Shown here: positions 7,065 through 46,916 of the stretch, in pieces
Layout of the letters: each line of letters begins with the position of its first letter
How positions within the stretch are numbered: position 1 is the first letter of the stretch
Assembly: GCA_016208105.1 (NCBI GenBank)
Contig: JACQYS010000022.1
Coordinates: 434,001-498,000, forward strand
Reading direction: 5' to 3'
DNA from: Desulfovibrio sp.
Lineage (GTDB): Bacteria > Desulfobacterota > Desulfovibrionia > Desulfovibrionales > Desulfovibrionaceae
DNA: 64,000 bases
Program-made: the position numbers and the translations under genes
Notes under the pieces: model-generated
Databases searched by the model: none
Told to the model about the DNA's origin: nothing
The model's input: the letters and a program-made list of their open reading frames with translations, nothing else

Positions 7065-7518
7065 GTAAAGGTCTGTAAGTAATAATAAGCTCCGAGAATA
7101 GTTTCGCTGAATTTCTTAGTTTAGTCTTTGGTCTATATGTAATATTTACAGTCGGGAAATACCAATTATACACATCCTCATCATCGTCATTATACTTCTC
7201 AGAATATTTTCCATACTGTTTACCAATCTCTGCCAAGAGTTTACCCTTGTCGTCGGGATAACCTTCTACCGCGATCGTGAGTAATCTATTTTTATAATAC
7301 TGATATGTGACATCTTTAATGATAACGCCATTGATGTACATTTTCTCGTTTGGGTTTCTATACCAATGATTATTTTGCGCGGGGATTATTTTTATAAAAT
7401 GAGAAGGTATAGGTGAACCCCACTTAAGACCCCTAAACCCGTCAGGCTCGCTAGCTACAGCATTACCAGCCAATACTAGCAGTATGAACAACAAGAAACG
7501 AATAGATTTAGTGTTCAT
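7027..7518 (-). CDS. Hypothetical secreted protein of AT-rich island
   Basis: This is a 163-residue protein with a clear Sec signal peptide (NTKSIRFLLFILLVLAGNAVAS), so the mature part should be periplasmic. The mature part begins with a FRGLKWGSPIP segment, like the short FRGIKWG-type motif of several small uncharacterised secreted proteins. It continues with alternating aromatic and charged beta-type segments. I do not recognise a catalytic site. I chose ATG 7518 over GTG 7521 because an AGAGG lies about 9 bp upstream. Its start overlaps the end of the next gene by 11 bp, so the two are probably translated together. Base composition is far more AT-rich than the flanking chromosome, which suggests horizontal acquisition. 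Confidence 0.6.
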   Translation of the reverse strand: MNTKSIRFLLFILLVLAGNAVASEPDGFRGLKWGSPIPSHFIKIIPAQNNHWYRNPNEKMYINGVIIKDVTYQYYKNRLLTIAVEGYPDDKGKLLAEIGKQYGKYSEKYNDDDEDVYNWYFPTVNITYRPKTKLRNSAKLFSELIITYRPLLKEHQKEFPSGF

Positions 7519-23092: not shown

Positions 23093-25087
23093 TTAGTTGC
23101 TGTATTCCTTGAGCTTGTTGCGAAGAGTGTTGCGATGAATGCCGAGCAGGCTCGCAGCCAGCACATGATTGTTGCCCGTGAGGCGCAGGGCTTCGGCAAT
23201 GGCCTCCTGCTCAATGTTTTTCAACGGCCTGATGCCTGAGAGTCCGGCGCCAGGCTCGGCTTCCGGCTGGCTGGCGCTTGCGGAAGCTGAAAAGCAGGAT
23301 GCGGATTTCCCCATCTGGAAGCAGATGGTGTCCAGGTGGCCAGTGGTCAGGACCGGCGCGTCCCTGGCGATGAGGATGGAGCGTTCCAGTATGTTGCCCA
23401 GCTCCCGGACGTTTCCCGGCCATTCGTGGTGCATGAGGGCTGCCAGGAAGTCTTGCGAGAGTTCCTTTTTCCCCTGCCCCAGCTTGCGGCAGACCATGTC
23501 CGCTATGTGTCTGGCCAGCAGCGGGATGTCGCCCGTGCGTTCGCGAAGGGGGGGGATGTCCAGGATGATGGTGTTGATGCGGTAGTAGAGGTCCAGGCGG
23601 ATGAGCCCCTGCTTCACCAGGTCGCCCACGTTCTTGCTGCTGGCGGCCAGAATGCGCACATTCACGGGCATAACCGTGTTGCCCCCCACGCGGGTGATCT
23701 TGTTTTCCTCAAGCACGCGCAGGAGCTTGATCTGCATCTCCTGGGGCATGCTGTCTATCTCGTCTAAGAAGATGGTCCCGCCGTCGGCTAGTTCGAATTT
23801 CCCCGGCATGCCGCCTTTTTTCGCACCGGAGAAGGCCCCTTCGTTGTAGCCGAAGAATTCGCTCTCCATGAGTTCGGAGGGGATGGCGCTGCAGTTGATG
23901 CCGATGAAGGGGCCGTCGCGGAGGTCGCTGGCGTTGTGGATGGCCTGGGCGAAGAGCTCTTTGCCGGTGCCGCTTTCTCCCTGGATCAGGACCCGGGCGT
24001 TGGTTGGCGCCACGCTGCCCGCCAGTTCCACCGCGCGCCGTATTCTCTCGTTGTTTCCCAGGATGTCCTCGAAGGTGAATGTGGCGTAGGCGCCCACCAT
24101 GCGGTGGACCAGGCGGTGGATGTCCTTTTTCTCCTTGGTGATGATGAGCTTGCCGATGGGCTCGTTCTCTTCGTTGTAGACGGCCTGCGTATTGACGAGA
24201 AGTGTGTTGTATTTGTCGTTCTTTTTTATGGAGATGCTTTTCTCGAAGAGCCTGTTGTCCTTGTCGAGCAGTTTGGTCAGAGGCGGGGACGAGAACAGCA
24301 CCTCTGTAACCGGCTGCCCGAGCAGCTTGTCAGACGGGGACGACGTGTACTGCGCAAGTATCTTGTTGATTTGCTTGACGTTCTGCTTGTTGTCCAACAC
24401 GGCCAACCCGTATTCGGAGCTGTCGATGCAGTTTTGCAGGTAGGTGTTTGTGGAGCGAAGTCCCAGGGCCTGTTCAAGGGCCTTGGCCATGGCGATCACG
24501 ATGCCCAGGGTGTGTTTGTGGATCAGGCGGTAGTCTCCGCTCAAGTTCAGGACGCCGATAAGCTCGCCTGAGTCGTCGCAGATTGGGGCGGAGGAGCAGG
24601 TCCAGTCGTGGTAGAAGGCGCAGTAGTGTTCCGCGCTGAAAATCTGCACGGGCTGTTTGCTTATAAGGCTCAAGGCGATGCCGGTGGTCCCGGCGTGGTG
24701 TTCGTTGCGCACTGCCCCGGGCCGGATGAAACCCTTGTCCGCGGATTCGAGCAGGTCCGGGTCTCCCACGGCGTGCAGAACATGCCCCTGCCTGCTGGCC
24801 AAAAGGCCGATGAAGTGGGTTTCGTCAACAACCTTGCCCAGGATGTCCATGTAGGGCTTGGCCAGGGAGATGAGCGCGGCGTTGGAGCGCAGGAGGGCGT
24901 CCAGGTGGTCCTGGTCGGTGATGCAGCAATCGCTGGCGCTCATGTAGGGGTTGAGGTTCTGGGCCCGGCAGCGCTTCCAGGATTCGAGGATGACAGGGCG
25001 GATGACAGTGGCGTCGCATTCCCCGGTATCCACAAAACGCTGCCATTCCCGAAAGTATGACTTCCGAGCGATATCGCAAGGATACAT
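23093..25087 (-). CDS. Sigma-54-dependent transcriptional activator (AcoR-like)
   Basis: This 664-residue enhancer-binding protein has an N-terminal GAF-type sensor region (about 60-225, including HYCAFYHDWTCSSAPICDD) and a PAS-like segment (about 230-320). The AAA+ domain carries Walker A GESGTGKELFAQAIHN, the sigma-54 contact loop as GAFSGA (usually GAFTGA), Walker B GGTIFLDEIDSM and the arginine-finger region. The C-terminus is a Fis-type HTH (ALRLTGNNHVLAASLLGIHR). AAGGAGGAG precedes ATG 25087. Domain order matches AcoR/DhaR-type regulators of carbon use. A sigma-54 promoter for the permease operon lies just downstream, so that operon is its likely target. The inducer is unknown. Confidence 0.9.
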   Translation of the reverse strand: MYPCDIARKSYFREWQRFVDTGECDATVIRPVILESWKRCRAQNLNPYMSASDCCITDQDHLDALLRSNAALISLAKPYMDILGKVVDETHFIGLLASRQGHVLHAVGDPDLLESADKGFIRPGAVRNEHHAGTTGIALSLISKQPVQIFSAEHYCAFYHDWTCSSAPICDDSGELIGVLNLSGDYRLIHKHTLGIVIAMAKALEQALGLRSTNTYLQNCIDSSEYGLAVLDNKQNVKQINKILAQYTSSPSDKLLGQPVTEVLFSSPPLTKLLDKDNRLFEKSISIKKNDKYNTLLVNTQAVYNEENEPIGKLIITKEKKDIHRLVHRMVGAYATFTFEDILGNNERIRRAVELAGSVAPTNARVLIQGESGTGKELFAQAIHNASDLRDGPFIGINCSAIPSELMESEFFGYNEGAFSGAKKGGMPGKFELADGGTIFLDEIDSMPQEMQIKLLRVLEENKITRVGGNTVMPVNVRILAASSKNVGDLVKQGLIRLDLYYRINTIILDIPPLRERTGDIPLLARHIADMVCRKLGQGKKELSQDFLAALMHHEWPGNVRELGNILERSILIARDAPVLTTGHLDTICFQMGKSASCFSASASASQPEAEPGAGLSGIRPLKNIEQEAIAEALRLTGNNHVLAASLLGIHRNTLRNKLKEYSN

Positions 25088-27930: not shown

Positions 27931-30084
27931 ATGATTTTTTGCTTCCCTATATCCGCCCGCGTTATGCTGGCCGTATGCCTTGTCCTCTTGAGCGCGTTGC
28001 CAGCCGTCGCCCAGGACAAGAAACGCGTTCTGGTGCTGCATTCCTACCACAAGGGACTGACCTGGACCGACAGCGAGGACGCCGGCATGGCCTCGGTGTT
28101 CAGGCAGGACAATCACATCGAGGTGTTCACCGAGTACATGGACGCAAAGCGCGTCCACAACCCGGGCGACGACGCCAGGCTGGCCTCCTTCTTAAAGGAG
28201 AAATACGCCCGGGTGGCGTTCGACGTGGTGCTGGCTTCCGATGACGACGCCTTCCAGTTCCTCTTGGACAAAAGGGCGGCTCTCTTCCCGAACGCCCCGG
28301 TGGTTTTTTGCGGCGTGAATTTCTTCGATGAAGCCAAGCTTACGGGAAAGCAGGATTTCTTCACCGGCATCGTGGAAGCCTATGATGTCCGCAACACGCT
28401 GCGCACGGCTCTGGCCCTGCATCCGGGTACCTACCGCATCGTGGTGATAAACGACAGGTCCGCTACCGGATTGGCCAACAAGAAGGTGCTCTCCGAGGTC
28501 TTGCCCGAGTTCGAGAAAAAGGTGTCCGTGTCCTACCTGGAAGACCTGGACATGGACGAGCTCCTCTCCAAGGTGAGGACCCTGGCCCAGGGGGATCTCA
28601 TCCTGCTCTTGACCTACAACCGGGACCGTTCCGGAAAGCCGTTCAATTACGATGAGTCAATAGAACTCGTGGCCGGGCAGTCCAAGGTGCCGATCTACGG
28701 CGTATGGGACTTCTACCTGGGCCACGGAATCGTCGGCGGTCTTCTGACCAGCGGCTTCGACCAGGGCAGGGAAGCAGCCGAGATGGCCGTGCGGATTCTT
28801 AGAGGGGAGCGCCCCCGCGACATCGGGGTGGTGAAGGAGAGCACCAACCGCTTCATGTTCGATTACGAGCAGCTGCGCCGGTTCGGCGTGTCCCAAAGCC
28901 TGTTGCCCGAGGGGAGCCTCCTCATCAACAGGCCAGCCTCCTTCTACGAGGAGCACCAGGGCAAGGTGCTGGCCGTGTCCACGGCGTTCATGATCCTTCT
29001 AGGCATGCTGATGGCCCTTTGGGTGAACATACAGGGGCGCAAGAAGACCGAGGCCAGCCTGCGCGAGTCCGAAGAGAAGTTCGAGCGCATCTTCCGGCAC
29101 AGCCCGGACTGGATCGCCATCCTGCGTCTCCATGAAGGCACCTACGTGGACGTCAACGATGCCTTCGTGGAGATCACCGGGTTCAGCCGCGAAGAGGTCA
29201 TCGGCAAGACGTCCATGGATATCGGTATCTACGCCAATCCCAAGGAACGCTACGAGCTCGACGAGGGTTTCTTGCGCCAGGGCCGGACCTTGAACCAGGA
29301 GCTCCAGTACAGGATGAAGTCCGGCGAGGTCATCACCGTCGAGCGGTCGGGCGAGCTTGTCGAAATCGGCGGGGAGAAATGCGTGGTCTCCATCGTCCGC
29401 GACATTACCAGCAAGAAACAGGCGGAGCAGGCCCTTATCGAGTCCGAGCTGCAAAAAAAGCTGCGTACCGACGCAGAAATCAAAATGCTCCAGGCCCAGA
29501 TCAATCCGCATTTTCTTTTCAACGCCATAACGTCCATCATGCATTATATCAGGACCGACCCGGAAACGGCCTCGGATCTTCTGGTGAAGCTTGGCGATTT
29601 CTTCCGCAAGAACATAAAGCCCGGCGGGGCCAGCGTCCCCCTGGCCAAGGAACTGGAACACTGCGAGGATTACCTTTCCATCGAGCGGGCCCGGTTCGAG
29701 GAACGGCTCAAGGTCACCTACGACATCGAACCAGCCGCCTTGGAGTGCCCGGTTCCTCCGCTCATCCTCCAGCCTTTGGTGGAAAACGCCCTGCGCCACG
29801 GACTGATGCCCAAGGAAGAGGGCGGGGAGATCATTGTCGGCGCCCATCATGAAAACGGCGCGGTGCGGATCTTCGTCAAGGACAACGGCGTGGGCATGGA
29901 ACAGGCGGCCGTGGCGGCCCTGCTGGACGAAACCCCGGGCATCCAGCCCGCTCACGGCACGGGCCTGGCCCTGCGCAACGTGAACGCCCGCCTGGTGGCC
30001 ATCCATGGAGCCCAGCACGGCCTGCGCATCGAGAGCGCTCCGGGCGTTGGCACAACCATCTCCTTCTCCATCCCGCGCTCATGA
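27931..30084 (+). CDS. LytS-type sensor histidine kinase with ABC substrate-binding-like sensor and PAS
   Basis: This is a 717-residue membrane kinase. A signal/anchor helix (about 5-27) is followed by a periplasmic ABC_sub_bind-like domain (about 30-330: KKRVLVLHSYHKGLTWTDSE, DVVLASDDDAFQFLLD, VPIYGVWDFYLGHGIVGG). A membrane helix lies near 350-370. A PAS domain (about 385-500) has FRHSPDWIAILRLHEG. The transmitter is His_kinase/LytS type, with phospho-acceptor His in QAQINPHFLFNAITSI near 527, and a HATPase segment with LVENALRHGL and GTGLALRNVNARL. Its stop overlaps the start of the LytTR regulator by 4 bp, so the pair is a unit. The sensor is related to the one in the kinase at 16133. Confidence 0.88.
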   Translation: MIFCFPISARVMLAVCLVLLSALPAVAQDKKRVLVLHSYHKGLTWTDSEDAGMASVFRQDNHIEVFTEYMDAKRVHNPGDDARLASFLKEKYARVAFDVVLASDDDAFQFLLDKRAALFPNAPVVFCGVNFFDEAKLTGKQDFFTGIVEAYDVRNTLRTALALHPGTYRIVVINDRSATGLANKKVLSEVLPEFEKKVSVSYLEDLDMDELLSKVRTLAQGDLILLLTYNRDRSGKPFNYDESIELVAGQSKVPIYGVWDFYLGHGIVGGLLTSGFDQGREAAEMAVRILRGERPRDIGVVKESTNRFMFDYEQLRRFGVSQSLLPEGSLLINRPASFYEEHQGKVLAVSTAFMILLGMLMALWVNIQGRKKTEASLRESEEKFERIFRHSPDWIAILRLHEGTYVDVNDAFVEITGFSREEVIGKTSMDIGIYANPKERYELDEGFLRQGRTLNQELQYRMKSGEVITVERSGELVEIGGEKCVVSIVRDITSKKQAEQALIESELQKKLRTDAEIKMLQAQINPHFLFNAITSIMHYIRTDPETASDLLVKLGDFFRKNIKPGGASVPLAKELEHCEDYLSIERARFEERLKVTYDIEPAALECPVPPLILQPLVENALRHGLMPKEEGGEIIVGAHHENGAVRIFVKDNGVGMEQAAVAALLDETPGIQPAHGTGLALRNVNARLVAIHGAQHGLRIESAPGVGTTISFSIPRS

Positions 30085-30833
30085 GCCTGACGGTCTTCAT
30101 CATAGACGACGAGGGGCCGGTCCGGCGCGAACTCAAGCATCTGCTCGGCCGCATCGAGGACGTGGCCATCGTTGGCGAGGCCTCCAGCGGTACGGCGGCC
30201 CTGCCCGAGGTAAGGGCCCTGCAACCCGACCTGGTGTTTCTAGACATCCAGATGCCCGGGCTCTCTGGCCTTGAGCTGTCCTACCTGTTCGGAGATCTGC
30301 CCAAAAAACCTCTGCTGGTGTTCGTTACGGCCTATGAAGAACACGCCGTGAGGGCGTTTGAATTGGACGCCCTGGACTACATCCTGAAGCCTTTCACGCT
30401 GGACAGGCTGCGCAAGGCCGTGGACAAGGCCAAGCGGTATTGCCGTCTGGATGAGGAGAGTTCCGCTCTCCAGCCCGCCTCCGGCCCCGGCGCCATCCAG
30501 GAGCGGCGAATCCCCCTGTACGACGGCGAGCGCATAGTGCCGACCCTTCCCAAACACATCTTCCACGTCACCAGCGATGACGGACGCATCAGCGTGCACG
30601 CCGTGCACGGGCGCTACACGGTCAAGGCCACCATCACGGAGTTGGAGGCCCGTCTCGTGCCTCATGGCTTTTTCCGGGCTCACCGCAGCCATCTGGTGAA
30701 TTTGAACCATGTTGCCGAGATTCTCCCCTGGACCGGCGGCAGCTACAAGCTCATCATGAGCGACCGCGAACGCACGGAAATCCTGGTCAGCCGCTACAAC
30801 GCCAAGGACCTGAAGGCGCATTTCGATATCTGA
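30081..30833 (+). CDS. LytR/AlgR-type response regulator
   Basis: This 250-residue regulator has a receiver domain with acidic pair D9/D10, phospho-acceptor Asp55 (DLVFLDIQMPG) and Lys in DYILKPF. A C-terminal LytTR DNA-binding domain spans about 150-248 (FHVTSDDGRISVHAVHGRYT, FFRAHRSHLVNLNHVAEILP). Its ATG overlaps the TGA of the kinase gene, which indicates translational coupling. LytTR regulators bind pairs of short direct repeats; I saw no obvious paired site near the gene. The lactate-use genes start 320 bp downstream on the same strand and could be a target, by position only. Confidence 0.92.
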   Translation: MSLTVFIIDDEGPVRRELKHLLGRIEDVAIVGEASSGTAALPEVRALQPDLVFLDIQMPGLSGLELSYLFGDLPKKPLLVFVTAYEEHAVRAFELDALDYILKPFTLDRLRKAVDKAKRYCRLDEESSALQPASGPGAIQERRIPLYDGERIVPTLPKHIFHVTSDDGRISVHAVHGRYTVKATITELEARLVPHGFFRAHRSHLVNLNHVAEILPWTGGSYKLIMSDRERTEILVSRYNAKDLKAHFDI

Positions 30834-30942
30834 CGCCGCGCCATCTCAAAGATCTCCGTTCCCCCATCCAGCCTTTTTTTGAGACCATTCGCCTGGAAAA
30901 TCGTGCCACTTGGATTTGCGCGATACCTTCTCGCAACCGAAA

Positions 30943-30957
30943 TGGTTGGCTTTTTGC
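30943..30957 (+). promoter_or_regulatory. Weak sigma-54-like site upstream of lutC
   Basis: TGGTTGGCTTTTTGC keeps the GG and GC dinucleotides at the correct spacing, but the middle CAC is TTG. It is about 200 bp before lutC. It is the best match in this 320-bp intergenic region, which otherwise shows only T-rich tracts. I treat it as a candidate only. Confidence 0.3.
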
Positions 30958-31156
30958 CCCGGCCCTTTTGAGAGAATGCGCCTTAATACCTTTCAAGCCT
31001 CAAAACACACCATTCAGGCATTCCTACCGCTGTTTGAAAAGATTGTTCACATTGCTTTGCAATGCCTGCTAAGAGACCTTGCAAATGGCCGCACCGCGTG
31101 CGCGCTGTGATGGAAACGGGCGTTTCGACCGGCGCCCTTCAACCTGGAGGACCGAT

Positions 31157-31708
31157 ATGTTTGACCTTTTCAAAGCAAAAGCTGAAGCCGTGAGCGCGGA
31201 AGTGCACCGCTTCGCTTCCAAAGGCGAGGCCCTGGCCTTCATCAAGGAAACCTTCCGCACGGAACAGGTGGCCGATGCCCCCCATTCCTACGCGGTATGG
31301 ACCGAATGTCCCTTTCTGAAGGATGTGGATACGGACGAGCTGGCCAAGGAATTCCCTGGGCTTAAGTTCAGTGTCACCCGGGATCTGGCCGAGCAGGCCA
31401 GGATCGGCATAACCCAGATGAACTGGGGTCTGGCCAACACCGGCAGCGTCTGCCAGAATTCCTCCGATCCCAAGGAACGCCTGGCTTCCATGCTGCCCTG
31501 GATACACCTGGCCATCATCGGCACCAATCAGATCCTGCCGGACATGCCCACGCTTCTCGAAACCGTTCACCCGAAAGATTGCGCCTATCTGGCCATAATC
31601 ACCGGCCCCAGCCGCACGGCCGACATCGAGCGGGTGCTCACCATCGGCGTGCACGGGCCTGAGCGGTTGATCATAGTCTGCATCGACGACCTTGGAGGGC
31701 AAAACTAA
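31157..31708 (+). CDS. lutC: LutC-like lactate utilization protein (LUD domain)
   Basis: This 183-residue protein is of the LutC/YkgG family. With LutA and LutB functions it oxidises L-lactate to pyruvate, passing electrons into the membrane chain or to other acceptors. LUD-domain features are AVWTECPFLKD, ITQMNWGLANTGSVCQ, LPWIHLAIIGTNQILPDMP and the C-terminal IITGPSRTADIERVLTIGVH. The start at ATG 31157 is set by GGAGG; longer upstream readings are leader. It overlaps the next gene by one base in TAATG, so expression is coupled. The composition matches the chromosome. Confidence 0.88.
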   Translation: MFDLFKAKAEAVSAEVHRFASKGEALAFIKETFRTEQVADAPHSYAVWTECPFLKDVDTDELAKEFPGLKFSVTRDLAEQARIGITQMNWGLANTGSVCQNSSDPKERLASMLPWIHLAIIGTNQILPDMPTLLETVHPKDCAYLAIITGPSRTADIERVLTIGVHGPERLIIVCIDDLGGQN

Positions 31709-33846
31709 TGGCTGACACACTCTTTAAACAATCAGTCGACAAGGCGTTGCACAACGCCAATCTGAGCGGAGCCCTGGGTCGCTTCTCCGAGGCCTACGCC
31801 GTGGCCAGGGTCAAGGCCTACGAAGGCATCGATTTTGAACAGCTGCGCGAGCGCATCGCCGCCATCAAGGGATACGCCGCCGAACACCTGGACGAACTGG
31901 CCGACCAGTTCGCGAAGGCGGCCACGGCGCGCGGGGCCAAGGTTTTCCGGGCCAGCTCCCCCCAGATGGTGAAGGACTACATCGCCAGCCTGTGCCGGGA
32001 AAAGGGCGTCAAGAGCATCGTCAAATCAAAGTCCATGGCCACCGAGGAAATCCACCTGAACCAGCACCTGATGGCGCAGGGCGTCCAGGTGAACGAGACG
32101 GACCTTGGCGAGTGGATCATCCAGCTGGCCGGGCAGACTCCTTCGCACATGGTCATGCCGGCCATCCACATGACCCGCGACGAGGTTGCCGACCTCTTCA
32201 GCAAGGAAATAAACGAGCGCCTGACCAACGACATCCCGAAACTGGTCAAGGTGGCCCGCAAGGAGCTGCGCGAAAAGTTCCTCCAGGCCGACATGGGCAT
32301 CTCCGGCGCCAACATGGCCATTGCCGAAACCGGCACCATCGGCATCATAACCAACGAGGGCAACGCCCGCCTGACCACCAGCCTGCCCAAGATCCACGTG
32401 GCGGTGGTTGGCCTGGAAAAGCTCATCCCCACCTGGGCCGACGCCGCCCCCATACTGGTAGCCCTGCCCAAGAGCGCCACCAGCCAGCAGCTCACCAGCT
32501 ACGTGAGCTTCATCACCGGGCCCACGCCCAATGACGACGGCTCCATGAAGGACGTGCACATCATCCTCATGGACAACAAACGCACCGAGATGGCCGCCGA
32601 CCCCATCTTCAAGCAGGCCCTGCAGTGCATCCGCTGCGCCTCCTGCCTGAACGTGTGCCCGGTGTACCGCCTGGTGGGCGGCCACGTGTTCGGCAAGGTC
32701 TACACGGGCGGCATAGGCACCATCCTCACCGCCTGGTTCGATGAGCTCAAAAAGAGCGAGGACATCCAGGGCCTGTGCATCCAGTGCGGCAACTGCAAGC
32801 AGGTCTGCCCCGGGCAGATCGACATTCCGGCGCTCATTCTGGAGATTCGGCGCAGGCTGGCCCAGGAAAAGGGCCAGGGAGTGGTGCAGAAGGCCATCTT
32901 CAGCGTGGTGAACAACCGCACCCTGTTCCACGCCATGCTGCGCACCGCCTCCAAGACCCAGAAACTGGTGGGGGCCAAGGAAGGATTCATCCGGCACCTG
33001 CCGTTCTTCCTCTCCGAGCTGTCCGACTTCCGCAGCCTGCCCGCCATTGCGGAAAAGCCTTTCCGCGACGTGTTCGACACCATCAAGCAGCCGGTGCTGC
33101 AAAAGAAGATCGCCTTCTACTCGGGCTGCCTCATCGACTTCGCCTACCCCGAAATGGGCGAGAAGCTGGTGAGCATTCTGAACAAGGCCGGCTACAACGT
33201 CACCTTCCCCAAGGGCCAGACCTGCTGTGGCGCTCCTGCCCGCTACAACGGCGCCTACGAGGTGGCGGCCAGCAACGCCACTGACAACGTCAACGCCTTG
33301 CTGGAAGAGGAAGTGGACTACGTGATCTCGGCCTGCCCCACCTGCACCGGGGCGCTCAAACACGAGTTCATCGAGGTGTACGAAAGCCTGGGACAGCGCG
33401 ACAAGCTCCCCAAGGCGCGCCGCCTGGCCACCAAGACCGTGGACTTCTCCACCTTCGTCAAGCAGTTGGTGGACGAGGGCAAGCTTACCTTCAAGGAAGG
33501 CAAGACCCTTGGCAGGATTACCTACCACGATTCCTGCCACCTGAAGCGCACCCTGCATGCCGAGAAGGAACCCAGGGAGCTCCTGACCCAGGCCGGCTAC
33601 CAGATCGACGAGATGTTCGAGTGCGACATGTGCTGCGGCATGGGCGGCTCGTATTCGCTCAAGTTCCCGGAGATCTCAAAGCCCATTCTCACCCGCAAGC
33701 TCACCAACATAAAAGCCACGGGCGCGCCCACGGTGGCCATGGACTGCCCCGGCTGCGTCATGCAGATCAAGGGCGGGTTCGACAAGGAAGGCGCCAGGGT
33801 GCAGGTGAAGCACACCGTGGAACTTCTGGACGACCTGTTGAAATAA
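31708..33846 (+). CDS. lutB: Fused LutB/LutA-type Fe-S lactate oxidation protein
   Basis: This 712-residue protein joins the LutB and LutA functions. Residues about 60-290 form a LUD domain (SGANMAIAETGTIGIITNEG). Two ferredoxin-type 4Fe-4S motifs follow: Cys307/310/313/317 in CIRCASCLNVCP and Cys357/360/363/367 in CIQCGNCKQVCP. The C-terminal third has two CCG domains like LutA: GQTCCGAPARYNG, YHDSCHLKRTLH, CDMCCGMGGSYSL and DCPGCVMQIKGG. In Bacillus, LutA and LutB are separate proteins; the fusion is common in sulfate reducers. It should oxidise lactate with LutC and supply pyruvate to PFOR encoded at 39209. A strong terminator follows, so lutC-lutB is a two-gene operon. Confidence 0.9.
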   Translation: MADTLFKQSVDKALHNANLSGALGRFSEAYAVARVKAYEGIDFEQLRERIAAIKGYAAEHLDELADQFAKAATARGAKVFRASSPQMVKDYIASLCREKGVKSIVKSKSMATEEIHLNQHLMAQGVQVNETDLGEWIIQLAGQTPSHMVMPAIHMTRDEVADLFSKEINERLTNDIPKLVKVARKELREKFLQADMGISGANMAIAETGTIGIITNEGNARLTTSLPKIHVAVVGLEKLIPTWADAAPILVALPKSATSQQLTSYVSFITGPTPNDDGSMKDVHIILMDNKRTEMAADPIFKQALQCIRCASCLNVCPVYRLVGGHVFGKVYTGGIGTILTAWFDELKKSEDIQGLCIQCGNCKQVCPGQIDIPALILEIRRRLAQEKGQGVVQKAIFSVVNNRTLFHAMLRTASKTQKLVGAKEGFIRHLPFFLSELSDFRSLPAIAEKPFRDVFDTIKQPVLQKKIAFYSGCLIDFAYPEMGEKLVSILNKAGYNVTFPKGQTCCGAPARYNGAYEVAASNATDNVNALLEEEVDYVISACPTCTGALKHEFIEVYESLGQRDKLPKARRLATKTVDFSTFVKQLVDEGKLTFKEGKTLGRITYHDSCHLKRTLHAEKEPRELLTQAGYQIDEMFECDMCCGMGGSYSLKFPEISKPILTRKLTNIKATGAPTVAMDCPGCVMQIKGGFDKEGARVQVKHTVELLDDLLK

Positions 33847-38920: not shown

Positions 38921-38961
38921 ATAAAAAATGCCCGGCGGCTTACAGTTTAAGCCGCCGGGCA
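38921..38961 (-). terminator. Rho-independent terminator downstream of por
   Basis: TGCCCGGCGGCTT and AAGCCGCCGGGCA form a perfect 13-bp stem with a 7-nt loop. On the minus strand it reads into TTTTTTAT. It is the second of two tandem hairpins between por and the exporter operon. Confidence 0.85.
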
Positions 38962-38998
38962 AGTAAAAAGAAGCGGGGGGAGAGGGCACTCCCCCCGC
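38962..38998 (-). terminator. First tandem terminator downstream of por
   Basis: GCGGGGGGAG and CTCCCCCCGC pair around a 6-nt loop (38973-38998) and are followed on the minus strand by TTCTTTTTACTT. Confidence 0.7.
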
Positions 38999-39208: not shown

Positions 39209-42856
<3,648 letters not shown>

Positions 42857-42880: not shown

Positions 42881-43948
42881 TTAGAGCCCAAGACCCTGCC
42901 TGATGGCGGCGATGTCGAGATTGCCGGCCACCAGTTGGGATGCTTGCTGGAATTTGCCTGGGTCGCGCAGTTTGTTCCTTGAGAGAAGGGCCTCCATGCG
43001 CCGGGCCACGGAATAGGTGTCCTCGCGAACCACCATGATGGGCACTTCCGCGTTCTCGGCGCGAGCCAGTATGATGTCGTTGGGGTAGAGGTTGCCTGTG
43101 AGAATAAGGCAGGCGCATCTGCCTTCGATGGCAACCAGTTGCAGGTCGGAGCGGTCGCCGCCCACGATCACCGCGGCCTTGGTGTGCTTTCTGAAATGGG
43201 TGAGGAAATTTTCCACCTGCATGGTGCCTATGAGGAAGCTCTCGGCCACCACATCGGATTTGTGGGCGCTGGAGATGAGCTTGCCGCCCAGGCGTTCGGC
43301 CAGGATGTTCACCGAAACCGCTCCGAGCAGGCGGTCGTGCGGCATGATGCCAAGAACTTTCACGCCGCGCTTGGCCAAGAACGGCACGAGCACGGAGTTC
43401 ACCTCTTCCTGGTAGTGGCCGGTGACGTCCGACAGGACGCATCCGAGCATCTTCTCGCCCAGGCGCTCCTTGATGGCCAGGAGTATGTCGTAGTTCATCT
43501 CGTGGGTGCACCGGTCCACGATGACAACCGGCACGTTCAGTGCCTTGGCCACGGTGGCGCCGTCTAAGCAGGCGTAAAGTCCGGAGTGCAGGAATCCGCC
43601 GGATCCTCCCACCAGGGTGACGTCCTTGCCCTTGGAGATCTTTTTGTACGCGGCCACGATCTCGCCGGTACGGTCCTGGCAGGGAGACTGGGAAAAGACC
43701 TTGTGCATGAAGTCCTGCGTGACCAGCACCGGCGTGGCCAGGTCGGGCGCGACGCTTTGGCCCAGGGCCTGGCTTATGGCGGCCGCGTCCAGGTCTCCCC
43801 AGGAGTCTCCTATTTTTGCCGCCTGCGCGCCCACGGGCTTGAAATAGCCCACCGAGAGCCCTTCCTTCTGGAACTTGAGGCCAAGACCCAGGCAGAGGGT
43901 GTTCTTTCCGGAAAAAGGCGCTGTGGAACCGATATACAGTCCTGGCAT
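42881..43948 (-). CDS. BioD-like/DRTGG-domain protein (Pta N-terminal-like), no catalytic Pta domain
   Basis: This 355-residue protein matches the N-terminal regulatory part of long phosphotransacetylases. A BioD-like P-loop region (GSTAPFSGKNTLCLGLGLKF, and VTLVGGSGGFLHSGLY) covers about 1-210. A DRTGG domain covers about 215-330 (AVIVGGDRSDLQLVAIEGRC, LILTGNLYPNDIILARAENA, VPIMVVREDTY). The C-terminal PTA catalytic domain is absent and the protein ends normally after ~25 more residues. It therefore cannot make acetyl phosphate by itself. Its place between ADP-forming acetate-CoA ligase and PFOR, with gaps of 21 and 39 bp, suggests a nucleotide- or metabolite-sensing partner in acetate metabolism. 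Confidence 0.82.
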   Translation of the reverse strand: MPGLYIGSTAPFSGKNTLCLGLGLKFQKEGLSVGYFKPVGAQAAKIGDSWGDLDAAAISQALGQSVAPDLATPVLVTQDFMHKVFSQSPCQDRTGEIVAAYKKISKGKDVTLVGGSGGFLHSGLYACLDGATVAKALNVPVVIVDRCTHEMNYDILLAIKERLGEKMLGCVLSDVTGHYQEEVNSVLVPFLAKRGVKVLGIMPHDRLLGAVSVNILAERLGGKLISSAHKSDVVAESFLIGTMQVENFLTHFRKHTKAAVIVGGDRSDLQLVAIEGRCACLILTGNLYPNDIILARAENAEVPIMVVREDTYSVARRMEALLSRNKLRDPGKFQQASQLVAGNLDIAAIRQGLGL

Positions 43949-43969: not shown

Positions 43970-46066
43970 CTACTGTGGAAGAAGCATAAGGCGCACGTCC
44001 GCTACGACGGCGCGTTCATTGTTGACAAGAACAGGGCCCAGTTCGGCCTCGTAAATCTCCGGGAAGTCTATCGCCAATTGCGAGAGCCGGATGACGATGT
44101 CTTCGAGTGCTTCGATGTTCGCCGCCGGTTCGCCACGCACCCCCTTGAGGAGCATGTAGGAGTCCACTTCGCGGATGAGCTGGCGGGCGTCATTGATGGA
44201 TACCGGGGCCAGCCGGTACGAGATGTCGCCCAGCACATCGATGTAGATTCCGTTCAGCCCGAAATGCAGAAGCGGCCCGAAGTGGTCGTCCCGGCGGAAA
44301 CCGAGCACCACTTCCTTCATGTTCGCGGGCGCCTGCTCCTGGATCATGCATCCGGAAACGTGGGCGTCCGGCCGGGTGATCTTCACGTGCCCGGTGATTT
44401 CGAGAAATGCCGTGCGCAGTTCCTCGGGCGTCCTGACCCCTACCGCCACGGCCCCGGCGTCCGCCTTGTGGGTGATCTGGGGCGAGGCCACCTTGCATAC
44501 CACAGGATATCCGATCTTGGAACCCAGAGCCAGCGCTTCGTCGGAAGTTCTTGCCAGTGCCGCTTTGGCTGCCGGGAGGTCGTAGGCCTTGAGGATGTCC
44601 TGGGCCATTTCGTCGGGAATTTCAGTCATTCCCTGGGAACGGGCTTCCTTGATGACCTTGCGCACCACATCCTTGCGGCCTTCCACGCTGGCCATGACCG
44701 GGGAAGGACGGCTCTTGCGGACGCCGTAGCGGTACATGGCCTCCAGGCTGCTCACAGCCTGTTCCGGGAATTGGTAGCAGGGAATGCCGGCCTCTTTGAG
44801 CAGGATGGCGCCGGCTTCCATGTGGCTTTTGCCCATGAAGCAGCACAGCACGGGCTTGAAGGTGTTCGCGGCGGATTTTATTATGGCCTTGGCCATCTTC
44901 TCGGGATGGGTGAACGCGGTGGGCGCGATGAGCACCATGAGGCTGTCCACCTGGGGATCGTCCAGCAGCACTGAAATGGTGCGGTCAAGGCGATTCGCGT
45001 CGGCGTCGGCCTGGATGTCCACGGGGTTGTATATTCCGGCCGAGGCCGAAAGGCCGGATTTGAGCGTGTCCACCGTCTGCGCCGACAGCGGGGCCATGGA
45101 CAGGAGCGACTTCTCGGCCGCGTCCGCGGCCAGGATGGCGGGGCCTCCCGCATTGGTGACGATGGCCAGGCGCGGCCCCTGGGGCAGGGGCTGGTTGGAA
45201 AAGGCCTGGGCCATGTCGAACATTTCAGTGATGGTGTGGGCGCGCAGAATCCCGGTCTGGCGGAAGGCGGCTTCGTAGGCGTGCTCGGACCCCACAAGCG
45301 AGCCTGTGTGGGAGGAGGCCGCCTTGGCCCCGGCCGCCGTGGTTCCGCCTTTGAGCATGATCACGGGTTTTTCCCGGGTGATCTTGCGGGCCATGCGCAG
45401 GAAGGCCTCGCCGTGCTCCACGTTCTCCACGTAGCCGAGAACGACCTTGGTTTCCGGGTCCTGGGCCAGCGCATAGAGCATGTGGGTTTCATCCACCACG
45501 GCCTTGTTGCCAAGGCTCACGAACTTGGAGAAGCCGATGGATTCGCCGATGGCCCAGTCCAGAATGGCGGAGCACAAGGCCCCGGACTGGGAGAAAAACG
45601 CGATGTTTCCCTTGCGGGGAAAGCCAGGAGAGAAAGACGCGTTGACGCCGTCCTCGGTGGAGATGATTCCAAGGCAGTTGGGGCCGATAAGCGCGATGTC
45701 GTTGTCGCGGCAGATGCGGGCCACTTCGGCTTCGATCTTCCATCCTTCCTTGCCGGATTCGCGGTACCCGGCGGAAACGATGACCGCGCCGCGCAGCCTG
45801 TGCTCCAGCAGGGCCTTCAGGGAGGGGATAACCGTTTCGCGCGGCACTGCGAGCACGGCAAGATCAAGGGGGGATGGAAGGCTCGGGATGTCCTTGTAGG
45901 CCTTGAGCCCGAGAACCGTTTCGGCTTTCGGGTTGACGGGGTACAGTTCGCCCTTGAAGCCGGCCTCGATCATGTTCTTCAAGATGGTGTGGCCAATCTT
46001 GCCCGAATCCCTGGAAGCGCCAACAACTGCCACGGTTTTCGGGCTGAACAAGGCGTCGAGGTGCAT
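43970..46066 (-). CDS. ADP-forming acetate-CoA ligase (alpha-beta fusion)
   Basis: This 698-residue enzyme is of the NDP-forming acyl-CoA synthetase family. It interconverts acetyl-CoA + ADP + Pi and acetate + CoA + ATP, so it conserves energy as acetate is released. The alpha part (about 1-460) begins DALFSPKTVAVVGASRDSGK with the CoA-binding Rossmann fold and includes the ligase-CoA regions LIGPNCLGIIS and ASSHTGSLVGSEHAYEAAFR, which contains His residues in the active-site zone. The beta part (about 480-698) is an ATP-grasp domain (DLPAAKAALARTSDEALALG, YPVVCKVASPQITHKADAGA, VVLGFRRDDHFGPLLHFG). I chose ATG 46066 for the GGAGTAAGA upstream. It heads the operon with the DRTGG protein and PFOR. 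Confidence 0.9.
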   Translation of the reverse strand: MHLDALFSPKTVAVVGASRDSGKIGHTILKNMIEAGFKGELYPVNPKAETVLGLKAYKDIPSLPSPLDLAVLAVPRETVIPSLKALLEHRLRGAVIVSAGYRESGKEGWKIEAEVARICRDNDIALIGPNCLGIISTEDGVNASFSPGFPRKGNIAFFSQSGALCSAILDWAIGESIGFSKFVSLGNKAVVDETHMLYALAQDPETKVVLGYVENVEHGEAFLRMARKITREKPVIMLKGGTTAAGAKAASSHTGSLVGSEHAYEAAFRQTGILRAHTITEMFDMAQAFSNQPLPQGPRLAIVTNAGGPAILAADAAEKSLLSMAPLSAQTVDTLKSGLSASAGIYNPVDIQADADANRLDRTISVLLDDPQVDSLMVLIAPTAFTHPEKMAKAIIKSAANTFKPVLCCFMGKSHMEAGAILLKEAGIPCYQFPEQAVSSLEAMYRYGVRKSRPSPVMASVEGRKDVVRKVIKEARSQGMTEIPDEMAQDILKAYDLPAAKAALARTSDEALALGSKIGYPVVCKVASPQITHKADAGAVAVGVRTPEELRTAFLEITGHVKITRPDAHVSGCMIQEQAPANMKEVVLGFRRDDHFGPLLHFGLNGIYIDVLGDISYRLAPVSINDARQLIREVDSYMLLKGVRGEPAANIEALEDIVIRLSQLAIDFPEIYEAELGPVLVNNERAVVADVRLMLLPQ

Positions 46067-46181
46067 TCTTACTCCGATATTGGAAACCGGCATTCTAAAC
46101 CGGCGCTTCCATCTTGTTTCACGGAATGAGACGAACGTGCATTTCGCCCCAGCCGCCACCGTTGACTAACCGAAACTTATT

Positions 46182-46196
46182 ACAACTTCCGTTCCA
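46182..46196 (-). promoter_or_regulatory. Weak sigma-54-like promoter of the acd-por operon
   Basis: The minus strand reads TGGAACGGAAGTTGT. It matches TGGCACG-N4-TTGC except at the C of CAC and the last base, so the -12 GC is GT. It lies about 115-130 bp before the acd ATG and just downstream of three palindromes that could be activator sites. The sequence around it is AT-rich, so a sigma-70 promoter is also possible. Confidence 0.4.
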
Positions 46197-46241
46197 ATAT
46201 TCTTAACATAATAAATCCAACAAGTTATTCGACTAGAGTCT

Positions 46242-46319
46242 GTCCGATCCTCCGGATTGACGGAGGGAGTCCGGTAATTCGGACGGTGTGGGAGGCGCAA
46301 CCAGTCCGGATGTCCGGAC
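46242..46319. promoter_or_regulatory. Three 16-bp GTCCG-type palindromes upstream of acd
   Basis: GTCCGATCCTCCGGAT (46242-46257), GTCCGGTAATTCGGAC (46269-46284) and GTCCGGATGTCCGGAC (46304-46319) share the same 16-bp length and half-sites; the last two are exact or near-exact palindromes. Centre spacings are 27 and 35 bp. They lie 45-135 bp upstream of the sigma-54-like site. The layout fits an upstream activating region for a dimeric enhancer-binding protein, such as the LurR-type activators known for lactate-oxidation genes in Desulfovibrio. Which protein binds is inferred only. Confidence 0.65.
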
Positions 46320-46517
46320 AGTGGCGGGCAGGCATGACAACACCTTATGCCCGACTCTTATGGTCGAGTCAATGCAATCGCTCAATGGACCAAAATTGCG
46401 TCCGAAATGCGCACAATTAAACGTGGACCGGGTTGGCCGCCCTGTTCGAGGCAGGGCCGGGACAGTTGCCAGCTGGCGGCTGGTTCGTGGTGCTGCGGGC
46501 GGAAAAAGTCTCCGGTC

Positions 46518-46916
46518 TTAGGCTGTCGGAGACGGGACCGCTTTATTCAGGGAGAGTCCTGGCAGGGTGAGCAGGGTGCGTTTGGCTTTGCGCTTGCGCC
46601 GTTCGAACACTTCCGGGCGCGAGCCGAGCCGGTAGCGCCACAGGTAGCAAGGGGAGTAGGGGTCCTTGCAGGAAGGAGAGGCCGCGCAGGCGCGGACCTG
46701 TTCCCTGTTGCCGCAACAGCAGCTGAGGCATTGGCGGCGTATGGCGCGGACAGGAGGCCTGGATGCTTGGGGAGCCGGCCCCTGGCGGTAGACGTGCAAG
46801 GGGCACTGCGAATCCGAACACTCCGCCACCAGCATGTACGAGCCGCCCATGCAGGCCACGCAGAATTTCCGGATGGATTCGGATGCGCTGAGCTTTTTGA
46901 TGACGTGTGAGCTCAT
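46518..46916 (-). CDS. Cys-rich protein with two putative zinc modules
   Basis: This 132-residue basic protein has two similar Cys modules. The first is IRKFCVACMGGSYMLVAEC then SDSQCPLHVYRQG; the second is IRRQCLSCCCGNREQVRAC then KDPYSPCYLWRYRLG. The C-x2-C plus C-P/Y-L-x-x-Y/R-x-G pattern is that of a small uncharacterised zinc-binding module found in many phage and bacterial proteins. The C-terminal tail is Arg/Lys-rich (RRKRKAKR) and may bind nucleic acid. The gene lies upstream of acd on the same strand, but 450 bp away. The function is unknown. Confidence 0.6.
   Translation of the reverse strand: MSSHVIKKLSASESIRKFCVACMGGSYMLVAECSDSQCPLHVYRQGPAPQASRPPVRAIRRQCLSCCCGNREQVRACAASPSCKDPYSPCYLWRYRLGSRPEVFERRKRKAKRTLLTLPGLSLNKAVPSPTA

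Follow-up and report, generated by a model that had tools for sequence, protein, structure and literature searches.

Which regulator acts through the three 16-bp palindromes upstream of the acd-ptaN-por operon, and where in the genome is it encoded? The palindromes lie in the window analysed here, a 64-kb stretch (C22:434001-498000) of a 4.18-Mb genome (G000). On the basis of sequence and gene neighbourhood, we propose, with a probability of about 0.87, that they serve as upstream activating sites for LurR, the enhancer-binding response regulator of the LurSR lactate system, and that LurR would drive three sets of genes: acd-ptaN-por, dld-permease and pta-ack.

The acd promoter and its operon

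An earlier note on this DNA had described three matched palindromes within 78 bp, placed 45-135 bp from a sigma-54-like element in the layout of an upstream activating region, before a central energy operon and away from the gene for the binding protein. All three are present (Table 1), the span and the distances are correct, and the element is on the minus strand. The reading as an upstream activating region of an enhancer-binding protein is supported by the fact that all seven genomes of the genus retain both the LurR-like sites and the sigma-54 element, and family models for por, ptaN and acd confirm, as far as position goes, that the sites precede such an operon. In length and half-sites the palindromes are like published LurR sites; the first, GTCCGATCCTCCGGAT, is an imperfect palindrome. 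The binding protein does appear to be encoded at a distance: a receiver-AAA+ regulator, a hybrid kinase and lactate genes are found on contig C5 and the operon on C22, adjacency of lurSR being usual for LurR operons, though not strictly defining.

Table 1. Features of the acd-ptaN-por locus, in positions of the window
Feature	Positions	Strand	Sequence	Remarks
Conserved element upstream of the LurR-type sites	46372-46346	minus	TTGAC-N16-GGCATA	7/7 genus genomes, fixed spacing
LurR-type site 3 (distal)	46304-46319		GTCCGGATGTCCGGAC	centre about -141; 0 mismatches to GTCCGG-N4-CCGGAC
LurR-type site 2	46269-46284		GTCCGGTAATTCGGAC	centre about -106; 1 mismatch to GTCCGG-N4-CCGGAC
LurR-type site 1 (proximal)	46242-46257		GTCCGATCCTCCGGAT	centre about -79 from predicted sigma-54 start; 2 mismatches to GTCCGG-N4-CCGGAC
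Sigma-54-type -24/-12 element	46196-46182	minus	TGGAACGGAAGTTGT
acd, ADP-forming acetate--CoA ligase type, first operon gene	43970-46066	minus		best NCBIfam models below curated cut-offs
ptaN, resembling the phosphotransacetylase N-terminal part (AAA_26 and DRTGG)	42881-43948	minus		21-bp gap to acd
por, pyruvate:ferredoxin oxidoreductase	39209-42841	minus		TIGR02176, 1914.8 bits; 39-bp gap to ptaN
Two terminator-like hairpins 3' of por	38929-38998	minus

From sigma-54 spacing, the transcription start of the acd promoter is predicted at about 46170. The -24 element reads TGGAACG in all seven genus genomes, against the consensus TGGCACG, and a sigma-54 gene (Sigma54_DBD) is encoded in the genome. 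IHF recognizes the consensus WATCAA-N4-TTR, to which 46160-46345 contains no match with one mismatch or fewer. We placed the acd start at the ATG at 46066, where the start is conserved and the leader is not. At the other end of the operon, a search for terminator-like hairpins 3' of por returned four matches (one nested, one on the opposite strand) against 0.7 expected, and the two hairpins of Table 1 likely mark the operon end. A second acd-like gene (51% identical) lies next to a ptaN-like gene elsewhere in the same genome (G000:C8:65043-68313), and the window also encodes a one-component sigma-54 activator with a GAF domain and HTH_8 (23093-25087, minus strand).

In the mechanism that we propose, lactate would be sensed by the hybrid kinase LurS, with phosphorylation of LurR as the outcome; LurR on the three sites would then contact sigma-54 RNA polymerase at TGGAACGGAAGTTGT, and ATP hydrolysis would open the promoter for transcription of acd-ptaN-por. 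The same LurR would also activate dld-permease on C5 and pta-ack on C27, and with one LurR at three loci the split lactate pathway would stay coordinated. We infer LurR binding, phosphorylation, the lactate signal and activation from the features described here.

Two further lactate loci

The C5 locus holds, on one strand and in this order, the hybrid kinase, the 468-residue receiver-AAA+ regulator, a pair of sites and then the lactate genes, namely a GlcD/D-lactate-dehydrogenase-like gene (dld), an iron-sulfur subunit and a lactate permease. In all seven genus genomes the sites of the dld promoter are exactly 27 bp apart and are accompanied by a TGGCACG-type sigma-54 element; G001 and G004 carry dld and lurSR on different contigs. 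Just 3' of this element, an inverted repeat CCTCC...GGAGG (L017, about 7374-7391) occurs in 5/5 aligned genomes and is doubled in two.

Upstream of pta-ack on C27 lie a full site, two weaker ones and a separate sigma-54 element. Scored with a symmetrised matrix that was trained solely on five published D. vulgaris LurR sites, the three best matches of a 12-kb C27 stretch (19.1, 11.8 and 10.6 bits) all fall upstream of pta. A full or near-full site is present in each of the six genomes with a full pta match (G006, 66% complete, has none and is outside this count), G003 reading CAGAC for CGGAC, and the sigma-54 element is good in five genomes and degenerate in G002.

Seven of the nine genes in the D. 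vulgaris operon DVU3025-3033 have counterparts in acd-ptaN-por and the C5 and C27 loci taken together. Counterparts of the other two, lldGH-like genes, lie elsewhere in the window, at 31079-33846, behind a LytTR-type two-component system. That stretch (27931-33846, plus strand) encodes a sensor kinase with an ABC substrate-binding-type domain, a LytTR response regulator, and lldG and the lldH-like gene (LUD domain). The L-lactate branch thus seems to have its own two-component system, separate from LurR; no matrix match of at least 12 bits lies near lldGH in the window. For a second permease gene, on C3, no match above 7 bits is listed upstream.

Candidate LurR and LurS genes

The C5 regulator combines a receiver domain (PF00072) with a sigma-54 AAA+ domain (PF00158), and it adjoins a large hybrid kinase with PAS, kinase and receiver domains, in which two PAS stretches were found; three PAS domains are described for the LurS-type hybrid kinase of D. 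vulgaris in the available text of PMC6456213. Pfam calls no HTH in the C-terminus of the regulator, but its helix SGLSRSHxYALLK recurs, identically or as a close variant, in the best matches from 29 other genomes. Among the LurR-like proteins of the genus (L041-L047, one from each of the seven genomes) the sigma-54 contact loop always reads GSFTGA, and by regular expression 16 of 23 other best regulator matches have GAFTGA, six GSFTGA and one neither, GAFTGA being also the loop given for D. vulgaris LurR in the accessible part of PMC4641369.

Scanning genome contigs with the C5 regulator returned 21 loci, two of them from close relatives (84 and 86% identical). The D. vulgaris lactate promoter sequence occurs in 0 of 288 family genomes, which precluded a direct DVU3023 comparison, and, as D. 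vulgaris LurR was not found, orthology to it rests on synteny and the published site. The C5 genes are likely the LurR and LurS of this genus.

Would another sigma-54 response regulator with a similar motif, of the NrfR, DVU0539 or LurR-paralogue type, use the sites instead of LurR or together with it? NrfR and LurR bind the same sites in D. vulgaris (PMC6456213, in the text available), and there DVU0539 is reported to target the same promoter, lowering reporter activity (PMC3333781, likewise in part), and because both act there, cross-binding by another regulator is possible. The genome itself contains 26 further matches to the LurR protein among 27 scored of 113 candidates. The best listed of these paralogues is encoded on C2; its helix, SGMSRSRLYALLK, is similar in part but has R for H, and its loop is GAYTGA. 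A closer case is found in G026, where the pair ATCCGCCATCGCGGAT / ATCCGCGATAGCGGAC (L150 1501-1538; G026:C7:251683) follows by about 300 bp a LurR-like paralogue that ends in SGLSRSHLYDLLKK (SGLSRSHLYDLLKKHG), has nearly the same recognition helix and lies away from the lactate operon. This paralogous regulator may use a near-identical motif, and since it adjoins such a pair, the motif by itself does not point uniquely to LurR. Against these points, the promoter next to lurSR and that of pta-ack carry the same sites, and a motif search of 19 kb around the genome's own nrfA-like gene found no enhancer-binding protein. We therefore consider it very unlikely that another regulator of this type is at work here.

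Conservation and a second upstream element

The regions upstream of acd have diverged considerably among the seven genus genomes (44-64% identity in 19 of 21 pairs, with two close pairs at 0.90 and 0.93), and the proposed LurR sites stand out from them. Invariant columns number 12/16, 11/16 and 10/16 in sites 1, 2 and 3, and the outer half-site columns are invariant in 27 of 30 positions over the three sites, including 10/10 in site 2; at the sigma-54 element, 46181-46188 and 46190-46196 do not vary in any of the seven genomes. Elsewhere the counts are 2/11 and 4/19 for the spacers, 5/44 between the sigma-54 element and site 1, 11/116 in the leader and 8/143 in the far upstream stretch. Spacing is kept as well: from one site start to the next the distance is 27 and then 35 bp (36 in G002), and site 1 starts 61-62 bp from the sigma-54 element in every genome. 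A strict regular expression with clustering recovers three sites in four of the seven genomes and two in the other three, where the third is degenerate but in register.

Further upstream, the TTGAC-N16-GGCATA element was found in 22 of 198 loci examined, and all 22 are overlapping copies of the region upstream of acd from the seven genus genomes. It may be a second promoter of a non-consensus sigma-70 type, or the site of another regulator; a consensus scan found no sigma-70-type promoter there. A predicted sigma-70 promoter overlaps the sigma-54 promoter in D. vulgaris, as the available text of PMC4481167 has it, whereas in this genus its place would be upstream of the LurR sites. A two-promoter switch is conceivable, in which the sigma-70-type promoter would keep por on without lactate and LurR would block it while firing the sigma-54 promoter, and we regard this as rather unlikely. 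If true, the LurR sites would lie at about +20 to +100 of the upstream start, and one protein would exchange promoters, not merely add activity.

Transcription from further upstream would also be needed if the palindromes worked as RNA or DNA hairpins in a leader, whether as terminator or as attenuator. Such repeats are able to pair, and a promoter-like element is conserved upstream of them, but no terminator-like structure was found in 46060-46560, 27 of the 30 outer half-site columns keep their letters with no covariation, and the same letters occur at two unlinked promoters, all of which makes a hairpin role extremely improbable.

Clusters and single sites against background

The case for LurR sites depends on clusters. 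Within the window, single loose matches (up to three mismatches) number 61 against 55.95 expected, and genome-wide the loose pattern occurs 1182 times, below its control (2101). Strict single sites occur 11 times and the reversed control 8 times. We accordingly rejected single-site genome counts as evidence. The paired motif, two sites 5-35 bp apart, behaves differently, with two places in 4.18 Mb and none for the control: the acd promoter, with two overlapping pairs, and C5:31582-31624. Across 59 genomes (own included), the pair pattern has 15 forward matches in ten genomes and the control none, and 13 of the 15 are upstream of acd, dld, permease or por. The other two are the G026 pair described above and one in G046 (L142 1501-1564; G046:C1:384903). 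The latter falls within an open frame of 1021 residues, which has a receiver-like end, and is probably due to chance.

Six of the 11 strict sites are located in the three lactate promoters (acd, dld and pta). The other five comprise three that overlap gene-like open reading frames (C17, C22:166147 and C23) and two that are apparently intergenic (C10 and C19), and by regular expression none of these five has a sigma-54 match within 600 bp. The C10 site, ATCCGAATTGCCGGAT (L101 2445-2460; G000:C10:171944), is directly upstream of a small open reading frame, ArsR-like by eye, and is possibly a similar-shaped site of another regulator.

The matrix trained on D. vulgaris sites ranks the site at 46269 first in the window, that at 46304 fourth and that at 46242 only 21st; hence the trio stands out and each site alone does not. 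The trio's score of 35.4 is the best in the window (85-bp spans) and is reached by 0 of 200 Markov-1 random windows, with a maximum of 30.0. The comparison with published LurR sites that the earlier note had suggested thus picks out the same trio, while the genome scan for GTCCGG-N4-CCGGAC that it had also suggested gave a divided result, strict singles being near background and clusters rare with a control of zero. Likewise, the possibility raised there, that the motif is common throughout the genome and unrelated to promoters, fits isolated sites and not clusters. Single sites are barely more frequent than in the reversed control, as chance clustering in a GC-rich genome would have it, but with no control clusters in this genome or in the 59, the sites kept in all seven genus genomes and no random window at the trio's score, we find such an origin scarcely credible.

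Gene arrangement in wider relatives

We scanned stretches of 30 genomes (own included), selected for high-ranking LurR matches or acd. In 21 of 29 relatives, the stretches around the best regulator match contain por, dld, permease or pta, and in the other eight none of these. At least two matrix matches of at least 12 bits lie within 700 bp upstream, summed over stretches, in 22 of the 24 genomes with a leading lactate gene; G029 and G032 have no match within this distance and two each elsewhere in the stretch. Outside the 24 are G039, G037, G042, G038, G051 and G043, for want of a leading lactate gene in the stretch examined. Overall, the 25,900 bp upstream contain 65 matches and the other 612,138 bp contain 25, so that the upstream density is 61 times that of the rest.

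In G033 and G030, lurSR, the sites, por, dld, permease, acd and ptaN are all together, which makes it likely that the dispersed state is derived in the genus of the window, the order of events being read from gene order in relatives. What we describe is thus a known type of regulator in a dispersed arrangement, in which genes that stand beside lurSR in several relatives are split over three loci. The literature covered, for the most part at the level of titles and abstract openings, and with most subscription papers and the supplementary site tables of PMC6456213 beyond its scope, yielded no description of a split LurR regulon and nothing on Fundidesulfovibrio together with lactate and promoter.

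The genus thereby offers a clean natural case of catabolic genes that are clustered in relatives and here occupy three loci, each with predicted sites of the same activator and a sigma-54 element. Its predicted lactate regulon includes an ADP-forming acetate--CoA ligase, and GTCCG-N6-CGGAC pairs 27 bp apart provide a practical search motif for LurR targets in relatives.

Comparison with known systems

The closest described system is that of D. vulgaris, which we compare on the basis of the available parts of the papers cited. There, LurR recognises ATCCGCTTTTTCAGAC, GTCCGCTTTTCAAGAC and GTCCACTTTTTCAGAC, three 16-bp sites that lie upstream of por and before a sigma-54 promoter, and most genomes have three LurR sites upstream (PMC6456213). 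The locus described here shares with DVU3025-3033 three GTCYR-N6-YRGAC-like 16-bp palindromes and a sigma-54 promoter before por or its operon, as well as lurSR-like genes in the same genome (PMC6456213). It differs in that D. vulgaris has one nine-gene operon adjoining lurSR and here there are three separate loci, and in that acd comes first and por last, with sites that are closer together and nearer the promoter (PMC6456213).

An ADP-forming acetyl-CoA synthetase gene replaces pta/ack in some luo operons (PMC4481167), and its presence in a lactate operon is a feature common to those operons, to acd-ptaN-por and to G033 and G030, which have acd-ptaN beside por, dld and permease. Unlike in those luo operons, as far as the available text of PMC4481167 describes them, acd-ptaN-por here stands apart from lurSR, dld and permease, and the genome also retains pta-ack elsewhere. 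Finally, a LurR-type promoter away from lurSR has a precedent in DVU2451 of D. vulgaris, a remote, LurR-activated promoter with two sites that is reported to be sigma-54-dependent (PMC6456213); its target is a lactate permease gene, whereas the remote target proposed here is an oxidoreductase operon.
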